A DNA stretch of 64,000 nt. Origin: Bacteroidales bacterium (lineage in GTDB: Bacteria; Bacteroidota; Bacteroidia; Bacteroidales; UBA932). The stretch's first letter is position 1. Each line of letters begins with the position of its first letter. The stretch is from assembly GCA_017631435.1 (NCBI GenBank), contig JAGBTG010000051.1, positions 44,563 to 108,562 of the forward strand, given 5' to 3'. Below, in pieces: positions 736 through 7,669 of this stretch. A model generated the notes under the pieces. The model made no database searches. It was not told where the DNA came from and worked only from the letters and a program-made list of their open reading frames with translations. The position numbers were made by a program, and so were the translations under genes.

Positions 736-1035
736 CTACTCTATAGCAAGAACCCGTGAAAAACCTGTAATGTCAAATACCGATTTTACTTCCGGATTGA
801 GATTCTTCAATACAAAACGGCCACCGGATGCTGCCAACATCTTATGGGTTGAAAGCACTACACGCAAACCGGCAGAACTCACATACTGCAACTTTTCACA
901 ATTGAAAACCATACCTGAGCACTTGCCTATATAAGGTTTTACTGCATTATCCAACTCCGAAGCCGTTACCGTATCCAAACGTCCTGCAATGTTCATCATT
1001 ACAATACCATTCTCCTGTAAAATATCAATTTCCAT
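736..1035 (-). CDS. STAS-domain protein, anti-sigma factor antagonist type (SpoIIAA/RsbV-like)
   Basis: A 99-residue single STAS domain. It shows the expected G-R-L-D-T loop near residue 18 and the motif SSAGLRV at about residues 53-59, whose serine is the residue phosphorylated by RsbW/SpoIIAB kinases in this family. Such proteins bind a cognate anti-sigma kinase when unphosphorylated. It lies 26 bp downstream of an RsbW-like ATPase gene, a natural partner. No sigma factor is visible nearby, so the output of the switch is unknown. It differs clearly from the second STAS protein at 3427-3717, which ends in a very similar G-V-F-D-M-S-G-F-S-type tail. Confidence 0.85.
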   Translation of the reverse strand: MEIDILQENGIVMMNIAGRLDTVTASELDNAVKPYIGKCSGMVFNCEKLQYVSSAGLRVVLSTHKMLAASGGRFVLKNLNPEVKSVFDITGFSRVLAIE

Positions 1036-1061
1036 ATCCTATCCTTTTATTATTTTTCTTC

Positions 1062-1472
1062 TTATTTATCCAAATGTTTTACCAATGTCAATATATTCTT
1101 GCCGTCAACCCTATTATACTCAACCTTATGCATCAGGCTTTTTATAAGGAAAATCCCAAGTCCGCCTACCGGTCTTTCTTCAAGCGAAAGAGTTACGTCT
1201 GCATCTGGCTGGGCAGTTGGATCAAACTCCTTACCTGTATCAATAAGTTTGAACACCAATTCATTTTCTGTCCAAAGGGCTGTAAGTTCAAGTGTATGTT
1301 CCTCATCCTGAGGATAGGCATACATAATGACATTTGTTACAGCCTCCTCCAATACCAGGTGAACATTGAACAACTCCTGGGCCGACAGTTCACAGCCAAT
1401 TTCCTCAAGAAAAGAGACCATGCGGCTGATTTCTTCTATCTTATTGCAAAGTTCTATTTTTCTTGATTCCAT
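1062..1472 (-). CDS. RsbW-like serine kinase / anti-sigma factor (HATPase_c)
   Basis: About 136 residues forming one GHKL ATPase domain of the RsbW/SpoIIAB type. Visible motifs are the N box (EEAVTNVIMYAY), the G1 box (DTGKEFDP) and the G2 box (GGLGIFLI), all intact, so ATP binding is likely. Family members phosphorylate a STAS protein on serine and otherwise hold a target protein. I start at ATG 1472; a TTG nine bases upstream is also in frame. The gene sits between the ABC-ATPase fusion (18 bp upstream) and a STAS gene (26 bp downstream), so all are probably co-transcribed. Which of the two STAS proteins it serves cannot be told. Confidence 0.85.
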   Translation of the reverse strand: MESRKIELCNKIEEISRMVSFLEEIGCELSAQELFNVHLVLEEAVTNVIMYAYPQDEEHTLELTALWTENELVFKLIDTGKEFDPTAQPDADVTLSLEERPVGGLGIFLIKSLMHKVEYNRVDGKNILTLVKHLDK

Positions 1473-1490
1473 CCAAGCCAAAATTACCTG

Positions 1491-2552
1491 TTATTTCAAC
1501 AATAAACGCTCCTGGTCCAATTCCATATGCAAAATCCTGCAATGATTCTCAATACGTTCTTCCAGAACATCGCATAATCCCTGCAAAATACTGAAACTCA
1601 AATCATCCCTACAACTGCTGCCATCCAAATACGATACACCCGAATCGGCTACCGTCATTTCAATGATCATGCGAACCTGCTGCTCAGCTTTTGACAATTT
1701 GAAGGTCAAGCCTTTTTCAAGCGGAATAAGATTCAGCGCCTCCTCAACTGCCAACTGCACAAAACGGAATGCCTGACCTCCCAATCCAAAACGGTTGCAG
1801 TACTGTTCTATTCTTGCATTCAACTCAGGACGGTCGAAATGAGGAGAATCTATGGTATAGTAAAGGTCCTTCATATAACTGAGGAACCTCTTTGTAGCCT
1901 CATTACACGGAGAGACAAGAACTTCCTCAACAGTACCTTCCTCACACACGTGCCCCTTTTCAAGGAAGACCACTTTATCTGCAAGCTCTGCCGCAATATT
2001 GAGCTTATGGGTATTCATTACTAATGTCATCTCCTTCTTGAGCTTTCTCAACACATCAGCAACCTCTCCTACAGCTATAGGATCAAGTGCCGACAAAGGC
2101 TCATCCAACAACAGGATCTGAGGTTTCATAACCAGGCTGCGGGCTATAGCCACACGCTGCTGCTGACCTTCAGAAAGCTCGCGTGGGAACAACATGCACT
2201 TTGCAGCCAATCCTACAGACTCCAGCTGCTCCATTGCAACTTTTTCCGCCTCTTTGGCCGATAACCCCAAAACTGTCATAGGTGCCAGCGTCAGATTGTG
2301 AAGCACACTCAAATGTGGAAAAAGATTGAAATGTTGGAATATCATTCCAATACGCGGTTTTTGGCCATCGGAAAATATTATGTCTCCAGAATCGGGTTTT
2401 TCCAGACCTGCCAGACATTTGAGCAGGGTACTCTTGCCACTGCCCATTGCTCCAATAAGACATATGGTCTCGTGGTCCCCTATCTTCAAGGACAAGTCAT
2501 TGAGCGCCTGATGGCTGCCAAATGATTTATATAAATGTCTAAGTTCAATCAT
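1491..2552 (-). CDS. Amino-acid-type ABC transporter ATPase fused to a degenerate RsbW-like domain
   Basis: Residues 1-225 are a GlnQ/HisP-type ATPase: Walker A GAMGSGKST, Q-loop IFQHFNLFPH, signature LSEGQQQRVA, Walker B ILLLDEP and H-loop NTHK. Residues ~230-353 resemble the RsbW-like protein encoded next door: V-E-E-A-L-N at the N box and A-D-S-G at the G1 box. The N-box asparagine is out of register and the glycines of the G2 box are replaced (D-D-L-S-F-S-I-L), so this half probably does not hydrolyse ATP. Usual stand-alone GlnQ proteins are ~240 residues. ATG 2552 gives the normal M-I-E-L start; ATG 2570 is possible. It overlaps the permease stop by 8 bp, implying translational coupling. 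Confidence 0.85.
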   Translation of the reverse strand: MIELRHLYKSFGSHQALNDLSLKIGDHETICLIGAMGSGKSTLLKCLAGLEKPDSGDIIFSDGQKPRIGMIFQHFNLFPHLSVLHNLTLAPMTVLGLSAKEAEKVAMEQLESVGLAAKCMLFPRELSEGQQQRVAIARSLVMKPQILLLDEPLSALDPIAVGEVADVLRKLKKEMTLVMNTHKLNIAAELADKVVFLEKGHVCEEGTVEEVLVSPCNEATKRFLSYMKDLYYTIDSPHFDRPELNARIEQYCNRFGLGGQAFRFVQLAVEEALNLIPLEKGLTFKLSKAEQQVRMIIEMTVADSGVSYLDGSSCRDDLSFSILQGLCDVLEERIENHCRILHMELDQERLLLK

Positions 2553-3357
2553 ACTTGAAAGTTTTTGCATATACCAGATTAATAAATTTGGCTATCAGCC
2601 AAGAGAGTATCAGGTACATTATTGAAACAAGCAGCAAAGGGAGAAACGTATCCGTATAGTGCTCCCTCACACTATATACAGACTTTATCAAATCCTCTTG
2701 GGCAATATATCCTGCATATGAAGTAGCACGCAACTGCACCTTCAGTTCCGCAACAAAAAGAGGCAACATGGACTTCACAGCCTGCGGCAAAACTATATAC
2801 CTGTAACATTGGCCTTTAGTGAGTCCCAAGGCCAGTCCAGCTTCAATCTGTCCTTTACCCACCTGAAGTATATGAACCTTGAATATCTTCATCAATGATC
2901 CTGAAGTATAGACACTCAACGCAATAATGGAAACCAGGATACCATTCATTCCGCCGGCAAAGATGACATAATAGAAAAACATCATCAACGCAACAGAAGG
3001 TATATCGTGTACAGTTGTTACAAACCAGTTAAGTGGTTTGAAAAGCCACGCACACTTGTGGCTTATTGCCATATATGCCAGCACGGCACCAAGGAGTATG
3101 GCTCCTACAGCTGCAAATAGAAATATTATCACCGTAGTTTTCAGACCACCAAACAAGATTTTCCACATGCCCCACGAGAACAGGCTATTTACCATATGCC
3201 CCCATTTGAGCACATCTGAATTGACAGCACCTTCAGATGAGCCTGCAGAAGAACCCAAATCCGGTGTACCAGCCCAACCAAAGCAGGTGAATGCAAGCAA
3301 CACACCCACCATAAGGAGAAACAATGTTTTTCCTGAAAAATTTTTCATTTTAAACAT
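2545..3357 (-). CDS. Amino-acid-type ABC transporter permease (HisM/GlnP family)
   Basis: A 270-residue inner-membrane permease. The cytoplasmic coupling (EAA) loop is visible as E-A-G-L-A-L-G-L-T near residue 170 followed by the helix Y-R-Y-I-V-L-P-Q-A. About five membrane segments follow residue 65. The N terminus has a hydrophobic segment (residues 10-28), then a short Gly/Ser-rich stretch of ~35 residues. In many Gram-negative systems a substrate-binding protein gene lies beside such a permease, and in some bacteria it is fused here; neither is seen. The ATPase partner is the next gene, overlapping by 8 bp. The substrate is probably a polar amino acid by family, but this is inference. Confidence 0.85.
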   Translation of the reverse strand: MFKMKNFSGKTLFLLMVGVLLAFTCFGWAGTPDLGSSAGSSEGAVNSDVLKWGHMVNSLFSWGMWKILFGGLKTTVIIFLFAAVGAILLGAVLAYMAISHKCAWLFKPLNWFVTTVHDIPSVALMMFFYYVIFAGGMNGILVSIIALSVYTSGSLMKIFKVHILQVGKGQIEAGLALGLTKGQCYRYIVLPQAVKSMLPLFVAELKVQLRATSYAGYIAQEDLIKSVYSVREHYTDTFLPLLLVSIMYLILSWLIAKFINLVYAKTFKYD

Positions 3358-3426
3358 ACCATTAAAAAAATTACAGACTCAACCGACAGGAAGAGCCTGA
3401 AAAGGTTCTGCAAATATGCAGTTCCC

Positions 3427-3717
3427 TTATTCTATATTGAAAATCTGGCTAAAGCCTGACATATCAAACACCCCTTTAACCAAGGGTTCAAGATTACGTA
3501 TTACAAGTTTTCCGCCCTTTGCCACAATATCCTTGTTCAAAGAGAGAAAAACCCTTAATCCAGAAGAGCATATATAACTCATTCCCTTACAGTCTACAAT
3601 AACTATATCACCCAAATTGACACTCAGCCTTCCAATCTCCTCCTCAAGCTCACGCAAACTTAGAGCATCCATAGGATAATCTACACGAATCTTATGTGTT
3701 GTGAAATTCTCACCCAT
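3427..3717 (-). CDS. Second STAS-domain protein (anti-sigma factor antagonist type)
   Basis: A 96-residue STAS domain with the motif CSSGLRVF at about residues 50-57; the second serine aligns with the phosphorylated serine of SpoIIAA/RsbV. The C-terminal 40 residues closely resemble those of the STAS protein at 736-1035, suggesting duplication. It is the first gene of the probable operon STAS-permease-ATPase/HATPase-HATPase-STAS, with a 69-bp gap to the permease. A -7 type promoter box lies 25 bp upstream of its ATG. Confidence 0.83.
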   Translation of the reverse strand: MGENFTTHKIRVDYPMDALSLRELEEEIGRLSVNLGDIVIVDCKGMSYICSSGLRVFLSLNKDIVAKGGKLVIRNLEPLVKGVFDMSGFSQIFNIE

Positions 3718-3742: not shown

Positions 3743-3750
3743 CAAAGTTA
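3743..3750 (-). promoter_or_regulatory. Bacteroidota -7 box before the STAS/ABC operon
   Basis: On the minus strand this reads TAACTTTG, matching TAnnTTTG, 25 bp before the STAS start codon. No clear -33 TTTG is seen at 19-21 bp spacing. Confidence 0.55.
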
Positions 3751-3826: not shown

Positions 3827-4081
3827 TTACAGAATCTGAGTTTTGAACTTCACCACCTTTTTACCCGGGATTATAATCATCTTTCGGGTATTAAGGCTCA
3901 TTGTACGCCTTGGTTTCCTCTCCTTAACCATAAATGACCCAAATCCCCTCAAAAACACATTTTCCTTATTCTTCAATGTTTCCGATATGGTATCAAGTAC
4001 CGAGTTCAGGAACTCATTGCTCTCCGCTAATGTTAGTCCTGTCTTCTGTGAAACTCTTTTCACAAGCTGTTTCTTGTTCAT
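3827..4081 (-). CDS. HU-family DNA-binding protein
   Basis: An 84-residue HU/IHF-fold protein, slightly short for the usual ~90. It begins MNKKQLVKRVSQKTGL, has the F-G-S-F turn (F-L-R-G-F-G-S-F) at mid-protein and a basic arm with R-K-P-R-R. The canonical R-N-P-x-T motif of the DNA-intercalating arm is replaced by a T-R-K-M-I-I-I-P-G-K-K-V-V-K-F ending, where the P of the arm is displaced. It therefore belongs to the divergent single-copy HU paralogues frequent in Bacteroidales. It is monocistronic with its own terminator and faces the mechanosensitive channel gene. Confidence 0.85.
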   Translation of the reverse strand: MNKKQLVKRVSQKTGLTLAESNEFLNSVLDTISETLKNKENVFLRGFGSFMVKERKPRRTMSLNTRKMIIIPGKKVVKFKTQIL

Positions 4082-4154
4082 GGCAATCAGTTTTTTCTCA
4101 ATAACAAATTGGGCAATACATTGTTTAAAGGACAGAACTCAAACAGAAACTGCC

Positions 4155-5120
4155 ATGATGGGAAAATTGAAACATATGTGGTGGAAAGTTGGTCTGCTGG
4201 CCATACTGCTTGCAATAATTATAGCAACACCGCTCATATTCACCAAAGAAACCAAACTGCTCTCACTGATAATGAGATTGGATGCCATAGCCATAACAGG
4301 AACATTCATGGCCATCCTCAATGATCTGATTATCTTCACCTACGGTCTGTTCAAAGGGAAAACCGTCTACAAGAAAGCTCCCCTGAAGGGGATAGAACAG
4401 ATAACCCGCATAATAGTATTCTTTGTAGGAGGGATCATCATCATTGCCATTCTTCTCGACAAATCTCCAGCCAAACTTCTCACAGGCCTTGGAGCGGTTG
4501 CTGCCGTAATCTCCTTCATCTTCAAGGACACCCTTCTTGGATTTGTATCGGGCATACAACTGAGTTCCAATGACATGGTACGCATAGGAGACTGGATTGT
4601 AGTCCCCGGCACTTTGGCCAACGGCAACGTGATTGACATCTCCCTCATCACCGTAAAGGTGCAGAACTTCGACAACACCATAGTTACCGTACCCTCATAC
4701 TCCCTTGTAAGCAGCTCTTTCCAGAACTGGAGGGGCATGGACGAGAGCGGCGGCCGCAGAATGACCATAAACCTGAACATGGACATGGACTATGTCCATT
4801 TCTGTACTCCCGACGAATTGCAGAAACTGGGTACCCTTGTGCAACTTCCTGCCGACACCTCCCAAATAACCAACCTCGAACTGTACAGGATATATATGGC
4901 CACCTACATACACAAGCACAAGGGAATAAACAACTCCATCCTTACAATGGTACGGCATATGGATCCTACTGCCACAGGTCTGCCGGTACAGATTTACTGT
5001 TTCTCCGCCCACAAAGGGTGGGCCGTATATGAAGGGGTAAAATCACAGATAACCGAACACGCCATAGCCATGGCACGCACATTCGGTCTGAAGATTTTCA
5101 ATTGGGGAGAAGATTCCTGA
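4155..5120 (+). CDS. MscS-family mechanosensitive channel (YbdG/MscM-like)
   Basis: About 321 residues with four hydrophobic segments in the first 130 residues, the last being the pore helix rich in G/A (L-T-G-L-G-A-V-A-A-V-I-S-F-I-F-K-D). The beta domain follows with R-I-G-D-W-I-V-V-P and N-F-D-N-T-I-V-T-V-P-S-Y-S-L-V and then Q-N-W-R-G-M, wording typical of the YbdG branch, which protects cells from osmotic downshift. The frame is open back to 3843, but that would overlap the HU gene on the other strand; the first ATG after it is 4155 (4158 also possible). It is convergent with the HU-like membrane protein gene, with 5 bp between their stops. Confidence 0.88.
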   Translation: MMGKLKHMWWKVGLLAILLAIIIATPLIFTKETKLLSLIMRLDAIAITGTFMAILNDLIIFTYGLFKGKTVYKKAPLKGIEQITRIIVFFVGGIIIIAILLDKSPAKLLTGLGAVAAVISFIFKDTLLGFVSGIQLSSNDMVRIGDWIVVPGTLANGNVIDISLITVKVQNFDNTIVTVPSYSLVSSSFQNWRGMDESGGRRMTINLNMDMDYVHFCTPDELQKLGTLVQLPADTSQITNLELYRIYMATYIHKHKGINNSILTMVRHMDPTATGLPVQIYCFSAHKGWAVYEGVKSQITEHAIAMARTFGLKIFNWGEDS

Positions 5121-5125
5121 AAATG

Positions 5126-5785
5126 TTACCGTGCACCCCACTGACGGATAATCTCAAGTTCCTCCTCTGTGTAAAGAAGATTTCTGAGCATCTGTGCAAA
5201 CTGCTCCTTGAAAAGGAGAATGAACAGAATTATGAGCAGCAATGCCACTGCAGCAACAAGTACCCACACAAGCACCTTCTGGTTCCTGTATGCATTTGCC
5301 GGCATTACAGGCTCAACCTGCGGCACTGCATCAGCATCAGATTCCTCAGGTTCAGATACAGGTTCCGGCATCTGCTCCGGTTCCTGCATCGGAGCCGGAT
5401 CGGGATTCAGTTCAAGGGATATTGCCTCAAGGGAGAAACTGTCGGGAGCAAAATCAAACTCCTCTGAGACCTCAAAAGAGATCTCTCCACCTTCTGTCTG
5501 CCTGAAAATTCCAAATCCTGGCACCTCAAATGCCCCATCCTGCTGCAATTTGCTGCAAATTTCCTCAGCCAGATCCTGCTGCCATGGCTCAAAAACATCA
5601 TTTTCGCCCTGTTCAGATGATGCAGAAAACAAAAGTTCCTTCTTTGGAGGGAGAATTGTCTTGCAATCTTCCAAAAAAGTTGCAGATTTTGCCACAATTG
5701 CAAACTTTCCAACCTTTGGAAGTATAACATTCTCATCCTTAATAAGTAACTGCTGAATTTCTCTATATACCAGGGCTATTTCCAT
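5126..5785 (-). CDS. Membrane-anchored protein with two HU-like domains (HU-CCDC81 type)
   Basis: A 219-residue protein. Residues 1-50 and ~65-115 each look like a short HU-fold module: a helix, then V-I-L-P-K-V-G-K-F and, in the second, F-E-V-P-G-F-G-I-F-R, which match the F-G-x-F turn of HU. A Pro/Glu-rich acidic spacer (residues 125-160) leads to one membrane helix (V-L-V-W-V-L-V-A-A-V-A-L-L-L-I-I-L-F) near residue 170 and a short tail. Such proteins occur across Bacteroidota; some carry a C-terminal SPOR domain, lacking here. The topology would keep the HU-like part in the cytoplasm. Whether it binds DNA is unknown. Confidence 0.75.
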   Translation of the reverse strand: MEIALVYREIQQLLIKDENVILPKVGKFAIVAKSATFLEDCKTILPPKKELLFSASSEQGENDVFEPWQQDLAEEICSKLQQDGAFEVPGFGIFRQTEGGEISFEVSEEFDFAPDSFSLEAISLELNPDPAPMQEPEQMPEPVSEPEESDADAVPQVEPVMPANAYRNQKVLVWVLVAAVALLLIILFILLFKEQFAQMLRNLLYTEEELEIIRQWGAR

Positions 5786-6134: not shown

Positions 6135-6821
6135 ATGAATACTATTTTTAAAATAAAGATCCCAGCCATTATTGCCATGCTCATTCTTGGAGCAATGCCG
6201 GCACTTGGACAGACCATCAGGAAAGCTGAATGGAGCTGCATTAAAATGGACTCAACTTATGACGGCAAGAAAGTGAAATCCACAAAAGTAATTGAGCAGC
6301 ACAAAGCCACATCTCCGGGCCTGCTCAAACCTATAGGAAAATGTGAGAAGGAACTCAAATCAGATGACCTGCAGCGTTTTGTGTCCGATGCCATGTTCAC
6401 ATACGCATCCCAGACACTGGCCAGAAAGACAAAGGATCCCGATGCCAAAGCAGATGTGACCATTATAAAATTCAAGAACAGGAAAGTGTCGTTACCGGCA
6501 GGTGATGTATCTGCCAATGACATAATCTCATTGTTCCCTATAGACAATAAAATATTGATATTTGACATTAAAGGGGAATACCTGAAGGAATTCATCAGAA
6601 AATCTTCAAGAAAGGGAGCTGTTTCATCAATGGAGGCAAAAGCCGTAGAAGATGACCACATATATAAAGTAATCACAATGGATTATATGCTCAGGAAAGA
6701 GGTATGTGCAGATGTGCTGGAGCATTCAGAAAATTTGGTAGAGAGCAGCATCCTGTACTTGAGCAATACCCTTGTCCAGCATGTGAGAAGACTTGCACAA
6801 AAAGGTGAAACCATCAAATAA
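6135..6821 (+). CDS. 5'-nucleotidase C-terminal domain as a separate exported protein
   Basis: A 228-residue protein with a signal peptide (hydrophobic to residue 25, A-L-G-Q). The rest resembles the C-terminal, substrate-binding domain of UshA-type 5'-nucleotidases: L-L-K-P-I-G-K-C near residue 65, D-D-L-Q-R-F-V-S-D-A-M, and the late segments D-I-I-S-L-F-P-I-D-N-K-I and D-H-I-Y-K-V-I-T. It has no metal site. The catalytic metallophosphatase half is the next gene, 8 bp away. In UshA both halves are one chain with the catalytic part first; here they are split and in reverse order. The two products may pair in the periplasm. Confidence 0.82.
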   Translation: MNTIFKIKIPAIIAMLILGAMPALGQTIRKAEWSCIKMDSTYDGKKVKSTKVIEQHKATSPGLLKPIGKCEKELKSDDLQRFVSDAMFTYASQTLARKTKDPDAKADVTIIKFKNRKVSLPAGDVSANDIISLFPIDNKILIFDIKGEYLKEFIRKSSRKGAVSSMEAKAVEDDHIYKVITMDYMLRKEVCADVLEHSENLVESSILYLSNTLVQHVRRLAQKGETIK

Positions 6822-6829
6822 GCTACAAT

Positions 6830-7669
6830 ATGAGAACACTACATATATATACTTTAATATTTATTGCAACTGTAGCATCAGCATTCTCTGCCAATGCTCA
6901 GGACCTTGTCATTTTGCACACCAATGATGTGCACAGCCAGCTCACCCCACAACTTATAGGAAAGAACAAGGGACTCAGTGGCTACGAAAGAAGGGAAGCC
7001 TACATAAAGGAGGTTGTAAAAAAACACGGAAGAGAGAATGTCCTTATTCTCGACGGAGGTGATTTCAGCATGGGAAGTTCCCATTTTGCAGTATACAAGG
7101 GGGATGTGGAGATTGAACTCATGAATGTTCTGGGGTATGACGCCGTATGCGTGGGCAATCACGAGCTGGACAGGGGACAGGAGGAATTGGCCCACCGTTT
7201 CAGCAATGCCAAATTTGAGGTATTGTGCGCCAACTTTGATTTCACAGAAAGTCCGCTGAAAGACCTTGTAAAACCTTATACAATTGTGCAGAAGGGGGGC
7301 AAAAAGATTGCCATCATTGGCCTTATGCTCAACATGAGGAGCTTTTCATTGAACAAGAACACCAAGAATCTCACATACATGAATGCCACAGATGTCCTTA
7401 ACCGCCTTGCAAAAGAACTTAAGGAAGAGCAGAAATGTGATCTTGTAATTGCCCTTTCCCATTGCGGCCTTTACACAGGAAGGGAGGGAAACCCAAGCGA
7501 TGAGCAGATAGCACCGCTCACCGAGCACGTTGACATTATTGTTGGAGGGCACTCACACACCTATATGGAGGAGATGCTTACCGTAAAAAACAAAGTGGGC
7601 AAGGATGTGATAATTGTGCAGGACGGGGCTATGGGCGAATACATTGGAAGATTGGATTTGTACTGGTAA
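6830..7669 (+). CDS. 5'-nucleotidase catalytic (metallophosphatase) domain protein
   Basis: A 279-residue exported metallophosphoesterase. After a signal peptide (cut near A-N-A-Q, residue 23) come the two-metal motifs of the 5'-nucleotidase family in order: H-T-N-D-V-H-S, L-D-G-G-D-F, G-N-H-E-L-D, A-L-S-H-C-G and G-G-H-S-H. All metal ligands and the catalytic His/Asp pair are present. The chain stops where UshA would continue into the substrate-binding domain, which is supplied by the preceding gene. Likely reaction: hydrolysis of phosphate from nucleotides in the periplasm. The substrate range is inferred from family only. Confidence 0.88.
   Translation: MRTLHIYTLIFIATVASAFSANAQDLVILHTNDVHSQLTPQLIGKNKGLSGYERREAYIKEVVKKHGRENVLILDGGDFSMGSSHFAVYKGDVEIELMNVLGYDAVCVGNHELDRGQEELAHRFSNAKFEVLCANFDFTESPLKDLVKPYTIVQKGGKKIAIIGLMLNMRSFSLNKNTKNLTYMNATDVLNRLAKELKEEQKCDLVIALSHCGLYTGREGNPSDEQIAPLTEHVDIIVGGHSHTYMEEMLTVKNKVGKDVIIVQDGAMGEYIGRLDLYW

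Follow-up and report, generated by a model that had tools for sequence, protein, structure and literature searches.

A partner-switching gene cluster linked to an ABC importer in a Bacteroidales genome, with a degenerate RsbW-like domain as a putative docking site

Background

Partner switches are known chiefly for regulating sigma factors. What, then, is the output of a partner switch that is encoded together with an ATP-binding cassette (ABC) importer? The question is raised by five genes at positions 736-3717 of a 64,000-nucleotide stretch of DNA from a Bacteroidales bacterium (the window in what follows, 44563-108562 of contig C55; the genome assembly is 2.17 Mb and 88% complete). Our answer, to which we assign a rough probability of 0.62, is that the cluster is a partner switch with a membrane transporter as its output, and that a degenerate RsbW-like domain at the C-terminus of the importer ATPase is the putative docking site of a STAS protein. 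If clusters of this kind gate transporters directly, bacteria of at least five phyla would be able to adjust nutrient uptake quickly and post-translationally, and a role would be suggested for some of the STAS, RsbW and SpoIIE genes next to which no sigma factor gene lies. The clusters would also offer a defined kinase-phosphatase pair for studying the on/off switching of an ABC importer.

Organization of the cluster

The five genes form a tightly packed operon on the minus strand, transcribed in the order STAS protein, ABC permease, ABC ATPase with a C-terminal extension, RsbW-like kinase, STAS protein (Table 1). The same arrangement had been given in a preliminary description of the locus, and coordinates, strand and Pfam matches agree with it. 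The first STAS gene is separated from the permease gene by 69 bp, and the kinase gene from the last STAS gene by 26 bp; permease and ATPase genes overlap by 8 or 26 bp, and 9 or 18 bp lie between ATPase and kinase genes, depending on the starts chosen. An alternative ATPase start is the ATG at 2552, and for the kinase the ATG at 1472 is the likelier start.

At the family level, the permease and the ATPase are of the polar amino acid importer type; no NCBIfam equivalog cut-off was reached, and the permease score against EhuD (8.9e-19) is far under the cut-off of that family. The three boxes of the free kinase are intact (EEAVTN for N, DTGKEF for G1 and GGLGI for G2 in alignment A3). Both STAS proteins of the window retain a phosphorylatable serine motif, which in the general form [SCA]SxG[LI]R is present in 39/39 STAS matches.

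The domain fused to the ATPase

Residues 230-359 of the ATPase, taken alone, have no match in Pfam. Despite this, a profile built from 25 such domains (A2) aligns with a profile of eight RsbW domains (A3) at an hhalign probability of 98.3% and an E-value of 1.3e-14, in a comparison of this single pair of profiles made with no database search; as a control, the domain profile gave 0.3% against 17 STAS proteins (A6). The fused domain is thus distantly related to the RsbW-type HATPase, and the preliminary description, which had called it RsbW-like, was right at the level of homology. A2 holds 25 of 29 domains; the four left out (L033, L036, L037 and L038, a subfamily with a shorter end) are still retrieved by it at 1e-12 to 1e-16. 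The remaining alignments comprise 20 of 24 rows (A4), nine of ten N-termini of SDF-like proteins, without L080 (A5), and 17 of 39 STAS proteins (A6).

With a single-sequence query, similar fusions were found in 14 of 295 genomes of the order, the genome under study included. When the A2 profile was run on 291 genomes of the order, ATPase fusions ranked first, in 18 genomes picked and counted by hand at E <1e-11 (again with the genome under study, and with one, G100, where the match falls in two pieces within a 296-amino-acid frame). The next matches, at 3e-8 to 1e-4, are mostly frames of 137-191 or 610-835 amino acids; many of these match HATPase_c_2 or SpoIIE, and a gene on contig C3 of the same genome, described below, is among them. 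On sequence grounds, this ability of the domain profile to retrieve free RsbW-type and SpoIIE-RsbW frames is support for the RsbW relationship. The presence of HATPase_c_2 in a genome is uninformative, since 272 of the 291 genomes have it. Scanned singly against this family, the ATPase fusion of L040 matches at 5.6e-6, just below the cut-off. A search of the PDB with the fused-domain profile gave no meaningful match.

The full three-box GHKL signature is found in 8/8 RsbW domains fused to SpoIIE and in 13/21 short RsbW open reading frames (ORFs), the latter including contig-cut fragments such as L136, L142 and L145. It is present in 1/8 domains fused to MATE carriers, 0/10 of the SDF-like proteins and 0/107 of the ATPase fusions, a set that includes four duplicate genomes and the window's own copy; the last count led us to reject an active GHKL kinase in this position. 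A glutamate pair in the N box is retained in 97/107 ATPase-fused domains. The window copy keeps this EE pair and the DSG of the G1 box, and has lost the N-box Asn and the G2 glycines; as far as motifs can tell, the C-terminal domain of the ATPase looks catalytically dead.

The phosphatase half of the system

The preliminary description saw no SpoIIE-type phosphatase or sigma factor near the cluster, and considered that such a pair might lie just beyond the left edge of the window. Neither a phosphatase nor a sigma factor gene was found in the 8 kb to the left (ORF list, with Pfam scans of six left-side and six right-side neighbours), and the genome has 11 matches to sigma-70 region 2, none of them on C55 or C3, so that a sigma factor or phosphatase just past the edge was rejected. 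The genome as a whole does have a phosphatase, contrary to what had been suggested: a single SpoIIE match on contig C3, outside the window cluster. It belongs to a row of genes (L003 4031-9409) for a STAS-APH fusion, a tyrosine phosphatase, an NMT1-type binding protein and a 778-amino-acid protein of dCache-HAMP-SpoIIE-RsbW architecture, the last two genes overlapping. The RsbW domain of this protein is 51% identical to the window kinase, and in a tree both group with the cluster kinases of L060 and L062 and with L032 (support 97/94).

Three genomes of the same family (L060, L062 and L066) have the two halves together, with NMT1, dCache-SpoIIE, RsbW, STAS, permease and ATPase-domain fusion in one co-directional row; a SpoIIE-like gene, which the preliminary description had thought worth seeking beside the cluster in other Bacteroidales, is present in all three. 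At L062, each ORF from SpoIIE to the ATPase overlaps the next one. The row at L060 resembles it, with a short permease (225 amino acids) and a separate SBP_bac_3 gene just downstream; at L066, RsbW is fused to SpoIIE. Among the nine flanking genes scanned at these three loci there is no sigma factor; LiaF-like and LytTR genes follow downstream on the same strand at L062, and AraC- and MerR-type regulators lie on the far side at L060. A comparable row in Methylovulum (L088) consists of NMT1, dCache-SpoIIE, SBP-permease, ATPase with the domain, and STAS, with no RsbW within the 14.9 kb stretch, and one in Azonexus hydrophilus (L100) of SBP-permease, ATPase with the domain, STAS, RsbW, NMT1 and dCache-SpoIIE. 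The NMT1 gene overlaps the dCache-SpoIIE gene or lies within 31 bp of it in 6/8 dCache-SpoIIE genes examined. The joint rows in relatives are our chief reason for treating the window cluster and the C3 locus as parts of one system, and on this reasoning the C3 phosphatase would serve the window cluster.

STAS-APH fusions recur near similar clusters at L104 and L138, which suggests that they are a further output of the switch.

Association of the fused domain with partner-switch genes

An alignment of the linker plus the domain, searched against a collection of species genomes, gave at least 571 matches, some of which may cover the linker only. The best 80 of these were examined: ATPase and domain share one ORF in 77, and the other three are cut by contig ends. 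They come from Bacteroidota, Bacillota, Chlorobi, Proteobacteria, Verrucomicrobia, Chloroflexi, Spirochaetes, Fibrobacter and other groups. With 28 further loci, and after removal of four duplicates, this made 101 distinct loci, the window excluded. At 24 of them the fusion has a STAS, RsbW or SpoIIE gene (a core gene) within 4 kb (Bacillota 13, Bacteroidota 7, Proteobacteria 2, Chlorobi 1, Verrucomicrobia 1; five phyla in all), and 38 of the 43 near genes are co-directional with it. STAS genes are concentrated close to the fusion, with 17 in 193 kb at distances within 1 kb vs 2 in 430 kb at 6-10 kb.

For comparison, seven fusion-bearing genomes were searched for related ATPases at E up to 1e-50, which yielded a control of 12 regions around 13 domain-less ATPases, from six of the seven. 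Core genes lie within 4 kb at 19/68 fusion loci with full flanks vs 0/12 control regions (Fisher p 0.029), a difference that has to be read against a small control and sequences that are related by descent and not independent. Within the same seven genomes, 5/12 fusion ATPases have a core neighbour vs 0/13 others (p 0.015); a single neighbourhood accounts for two of the five. The absence of core genes from both controls indicates that the association tracks the fused domain and not the ATPase family. In the order, SpoIIE is found in 18/18 fusion genomes vs 201/273 others (p 0.005); a comparison at a stronger threshold (18/18 vs 50/273) is not relied on, the threshold being post hoc and the count made by hand.

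Contrary to the conservation that the preliminary description had hoped for, the exact gene order of the cluster occurs at 0 of the 101 other loci, and across 99 genomes of the family (E up to 1e-60, no more than 20 candidates scored in each) no match listed from outside the genome under study exceeds 46% identity to the ATPase. What stood of the earlier proposal is the link between partner switch and transporter, which is well supported by the joint clusters in relatives, the recurrence in five phyla and the association with the domain; the lack of a phosphatase was wrong for this genome.

In Oscillibacter valericigenes, a second ATPase with an RsbW-like domain (L175 7227-8912, a 561-amino-acid ORF) lies in the same genome region as L118.

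Proposed mechanism and alternatives

In the mechanism that we propose, an external signal would be sensed by the periplasmic NMT1-type binding protein together with the dCache domain of the SpoIIE phosphatase, and the phosphatase would then strip the phosphate from a STAS protein. The dephosphorylated STAS protein would dock on the degenerate RsbW-like C-terminus of the ABC ATPase and alter ATPase or transport activity, and rephosphorylation by the free, intact RsbW kinase would release it from the domain. The contact between STAS protein and domain, the effect on transport, be it activating or inhibiting, and the substrate are all predictions.

Several observations weigh against a transporter as the output of the switch, and are best considered with the readings that they favour. 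The main rival has the importer as a sensor: ligand binding or flux would alter the RsbW-like domain, which would titrate STAS protein or kinase and so act on another target, such as transcription, the STAS-APH kinase or other transporters. A signalling role is conceivable, given that the window permease has no binding-protein domain and that a profile search for SBP_bac_3 gave 0 matches in this 88% complete genome, so that the permease may not transport as usual, or even at all; permease genes of relatives have a fused SBP_bac_3 in 7/7 cases scanned with Pfam, and the permease ORF is shorter than 320 amino acids at 13/101 loci, some of them truncated by contig ends. The STAS-APH fusion and tyrosine phosphatase beside the SpoIIE gene on C3 would also fit, and the LytTR DNA-binding protein, two genes downstream on the same strand at L062, makes an output in transcription possible there. 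We nevertheless hold this reading to be unlikely: the joint clusters already have a likely sensor in the NMT1 protein next to dCache-SpoIIE, and the presence of domains of this type on SDF and MATE carriers, described below, better suits an output module.

ABC ATPases with a C-terminal regulatory domain, MetN and MalK, are the model for another reading, in which the domain is simply a structural or ligand-binding regulator of the importer, its RsbW ancestry is historical, and the STAS and RsbW neighbours serve something else. The loss of the catalytic signature would agree with this, as would the 77/101 loci that lack a core gene within 4 kb, so that the partners of the domain are often distant or absent; four further fusion ATPases (L171, L172 twice, L174) also have no core gene within this distance. 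Short-range enrichment is weak for RsbW (4 in 193 kb vs 3 in 430 kb) and SpoIIE (3 vs 3), and the window ATPase and the importer fusions of L060, L088, L104 and L125, scanned singly, do not match HATPase_c_2. The short-range enrichment and shared direction of STAS genes, the empty surroundings of the domain-less ATPases, the overlapping ORFs at L062 and the presence of SpoIIE in every fusion genome speak for a functional link, and make a purely structural domain improbable. It is more improbable still, to the point that we give it hardly any credence, that an ordinary sigma/anti-sigma switch with its sigma target elsewhere came to lie beside a transporter by chance. Partner switches do classically target sigma factors, according to the available part of a review (PMC8256260), and the 11 sigma-70 region 2 matches elsewhere in the genome are possible partners in trans; yet no such match lies on either contig, or near either half or the three joint rows among the neighbours scanned, and the association with transporters recurs in five phyla. 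An ordinary importer with an uninformative tail was considered as well, and the neighbourhood data speak against it.

Comparison with known systems

The Rsb/Spo switches (SpoIIAA-SpoIIAB-sigma F and RsbV-RsbW-RsbU-sigma B) share with the present system a STAS protein with a phosphoserine motif, a GHKL serine kinase and a SpoIIE-type phosphatase. Among solved structures, the relatives of kinase profile A3 are RsbW (6m36, the best, and 6m37) and SpoIIAB (1til and 1th8), and those of the window STAS protein are 4hyl and then chain B of 6m36. The present system differs in that no sigma factor gene is found on C55 or C3, in that the transporter ATPase bears a second, degenerate RsbW domain, and in that the phosphatase carries a dCache-HAMP sensor and is encoded next to NMT1. 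GlnPQ-type amino acid importers, in which binding domains are fused to the permease, have the same permease and ATPase family, and permeases of the relatives have fused SBP_bac_3 as well; here, unlike in those importers, a C-terminal RsbW-like domain and linked partner-switch genes are present, and the window permease is without binding domains.

The phospholipid transporter MlaFEDB offers a precedent for STAS action on an ABC ATPase: by the available part of the account, the STAS protein MlaB binds the ATPase domain of MlaF directly; phosphoregulation at the equivalent residue was proposed there and not demonstrated, and that part reports no kinase or phosphatase for MlaB (PMC7367683). The system described here has an amino-acid-type permease instead and an RsbW-like domain added to the ATPase. 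A MlaFEDB-type system was rejected, the permease family being BPD_transp_1; no MCE protein was found among the scanned neighbours, no genome-wide search for one having been made. In Synechocystis, the RsbW-like kinases Slr1861 and PmgA and the icfG cluster likewise combine an Rsb-like kinase, a phosphatase and phosphoproteins, and the portion of the account at hand reports no transporter fused to an RsbW-like domain (PMC11863333). The review of STAS-only proteins, in its available part, mentions transporters solely for SulP/SLC26 (PMC8256260). In the open-access literature, with most subscription papers and all preprints outside the scope, we found no account of an ABC importer controlled by a partner switch or of SDF or MATE carriers bearing RsbW-like domains; as far as these partly available sources go, the view that no system of this make-up has been described is borne out.

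Related domains on SDF and MATE carriers

At some loci, mostly of Bacillota, ORFs of 530-598 amino acids with an N-terminal domain of the same kind are found near the importer gene, and 6/9 of them overlap that gene or begin within 12 bp of it. All five that were scanned match the SDF symporter family (Table 1; L157 is a Treponema locus); a tenth protein, at L080, matches HATPase_c_2 and not SDF. The N-termini of the nine (A5) align with the ATPase-fused domain at an hhalign probability of 96.7%, and with RsbW at 79.1%. Where the domain is C-terminal, the protein is a MATE carrier in 6/6 cases scanned, three of which match HATPase_c_2 (one of them under the cut-off), and some of these fusions lie 4-8 kb from the importer. 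Blautia schinkii (L104) has, on one strand and with other genes interspersed, the SDF fusion, a STAS protein, a short RsbW-like protein, the importer fusion, a STAS-APH fusion, the MATE fusion with its signature intact, SpoIIE and a second RsbW.

RsbW-derived pseudo-kinase domains may be a general docking module that places ABC importers, SDF symporters and MATE exporters under a STAS phospho-switch, post-translationally and with no transcription factor in the circuit, a generalization that we find evenly poised between true and false. If it is true, one phosphatase could set several transporters together.

Feature coordinates and neighbouring genes

Table 1. Coordinates of the window cluster and of related genes at other loci
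Feature	Locus	Coordinates	Strand	Evidence or remark
STAS protein 1, first gene, 96 amino acids	window	3427..3717	-	PF01740 7.4e-14; phosphosite motif CSSGLR
ABC permease, polar amino acid (EhuD/GlnP-like) type, 270 amino acids	window	2545..3357	-	PF00528 (BPD_transp_1) 6.8e-10; no fused SBP_bac_3
ABC ATPase (residues 1-~230) with C-terminal RsbW-like domain (~230-359)	window	1491..2570	-	PF00005 (ABC_tran) 5.4e-32
Degenerate RsbW-like (pseudo-kinase) domain of the ATPase	window	1491..1892	-	hhalign vs RsbW; motif alignment
Free RsbW-like serine kinase, 139 amino acids from TTG 1481	window	1062..1481	-	PF13581 (HATPase_c_2) 6.8e-25
STAS protein 2, last gene, 99 amino acids	window	736..1035	-	PF01740 6.1e-18; TIGR00377 above cut-off; phosphosite motif SSAGLR
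Possible Bacteroidota-type -7 box, TAACTTTG	window	3743..3750	-	25 bp ahead of the first STAS start
NMT1	L062	16301-15330
dCache-SpoIIE	L062	15306-13378
RsbW	L062	13394-12972
STAS	L062	12975-12649
SBP_bac_3-permease	L062	12652-9659
ATPase with domain	L062	9662-8580
SDF symporter, N-terminal degenerate RsbW-like domain	L103	6036-7631
SDF symporter, same type	L104	3759-5351
SDF symporter, same type	L125	5460-7076
SDF symporter, same type	L154	5319-7076
SDF symporter, same type	L157	7566-9362
MATE-type carrier, C-terminal HATPase_c_2	L104	13298-15019		STAS and SpoIIE also at locus
MATE-type carrier, C-terminal HATPase_c_2	L118	5321-7075		STAS and SpoIIE also at locus
MATE-type carrier, C-terminal HATPase_c_2	L149	6464-8221		STAS and SpoIIE also at locus

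The -7 box candidate (L002 11743-11750), picked by the Bacteroidota consensus, is weak, the pattern being found 28 times in 16 kb vs 16 expected by chance.

Beside the cluster, at 3827-5785 of the window, a mechanosensitive channel gene is flanked by genes for an HU-type DNA-binding protein and a CCDC81-like HU-domain protein. At 6135-7669, a 5'-nucleotidase-like protein is split in two genes, the gene for the C-terminal domain preceding that for the metallophosphatase. To the left of the window (L002 366-6563) there are two long ORFs, of 718 and 919 amino acids, with BspA-type leucine-rich repeats (Pfam LRR_5).

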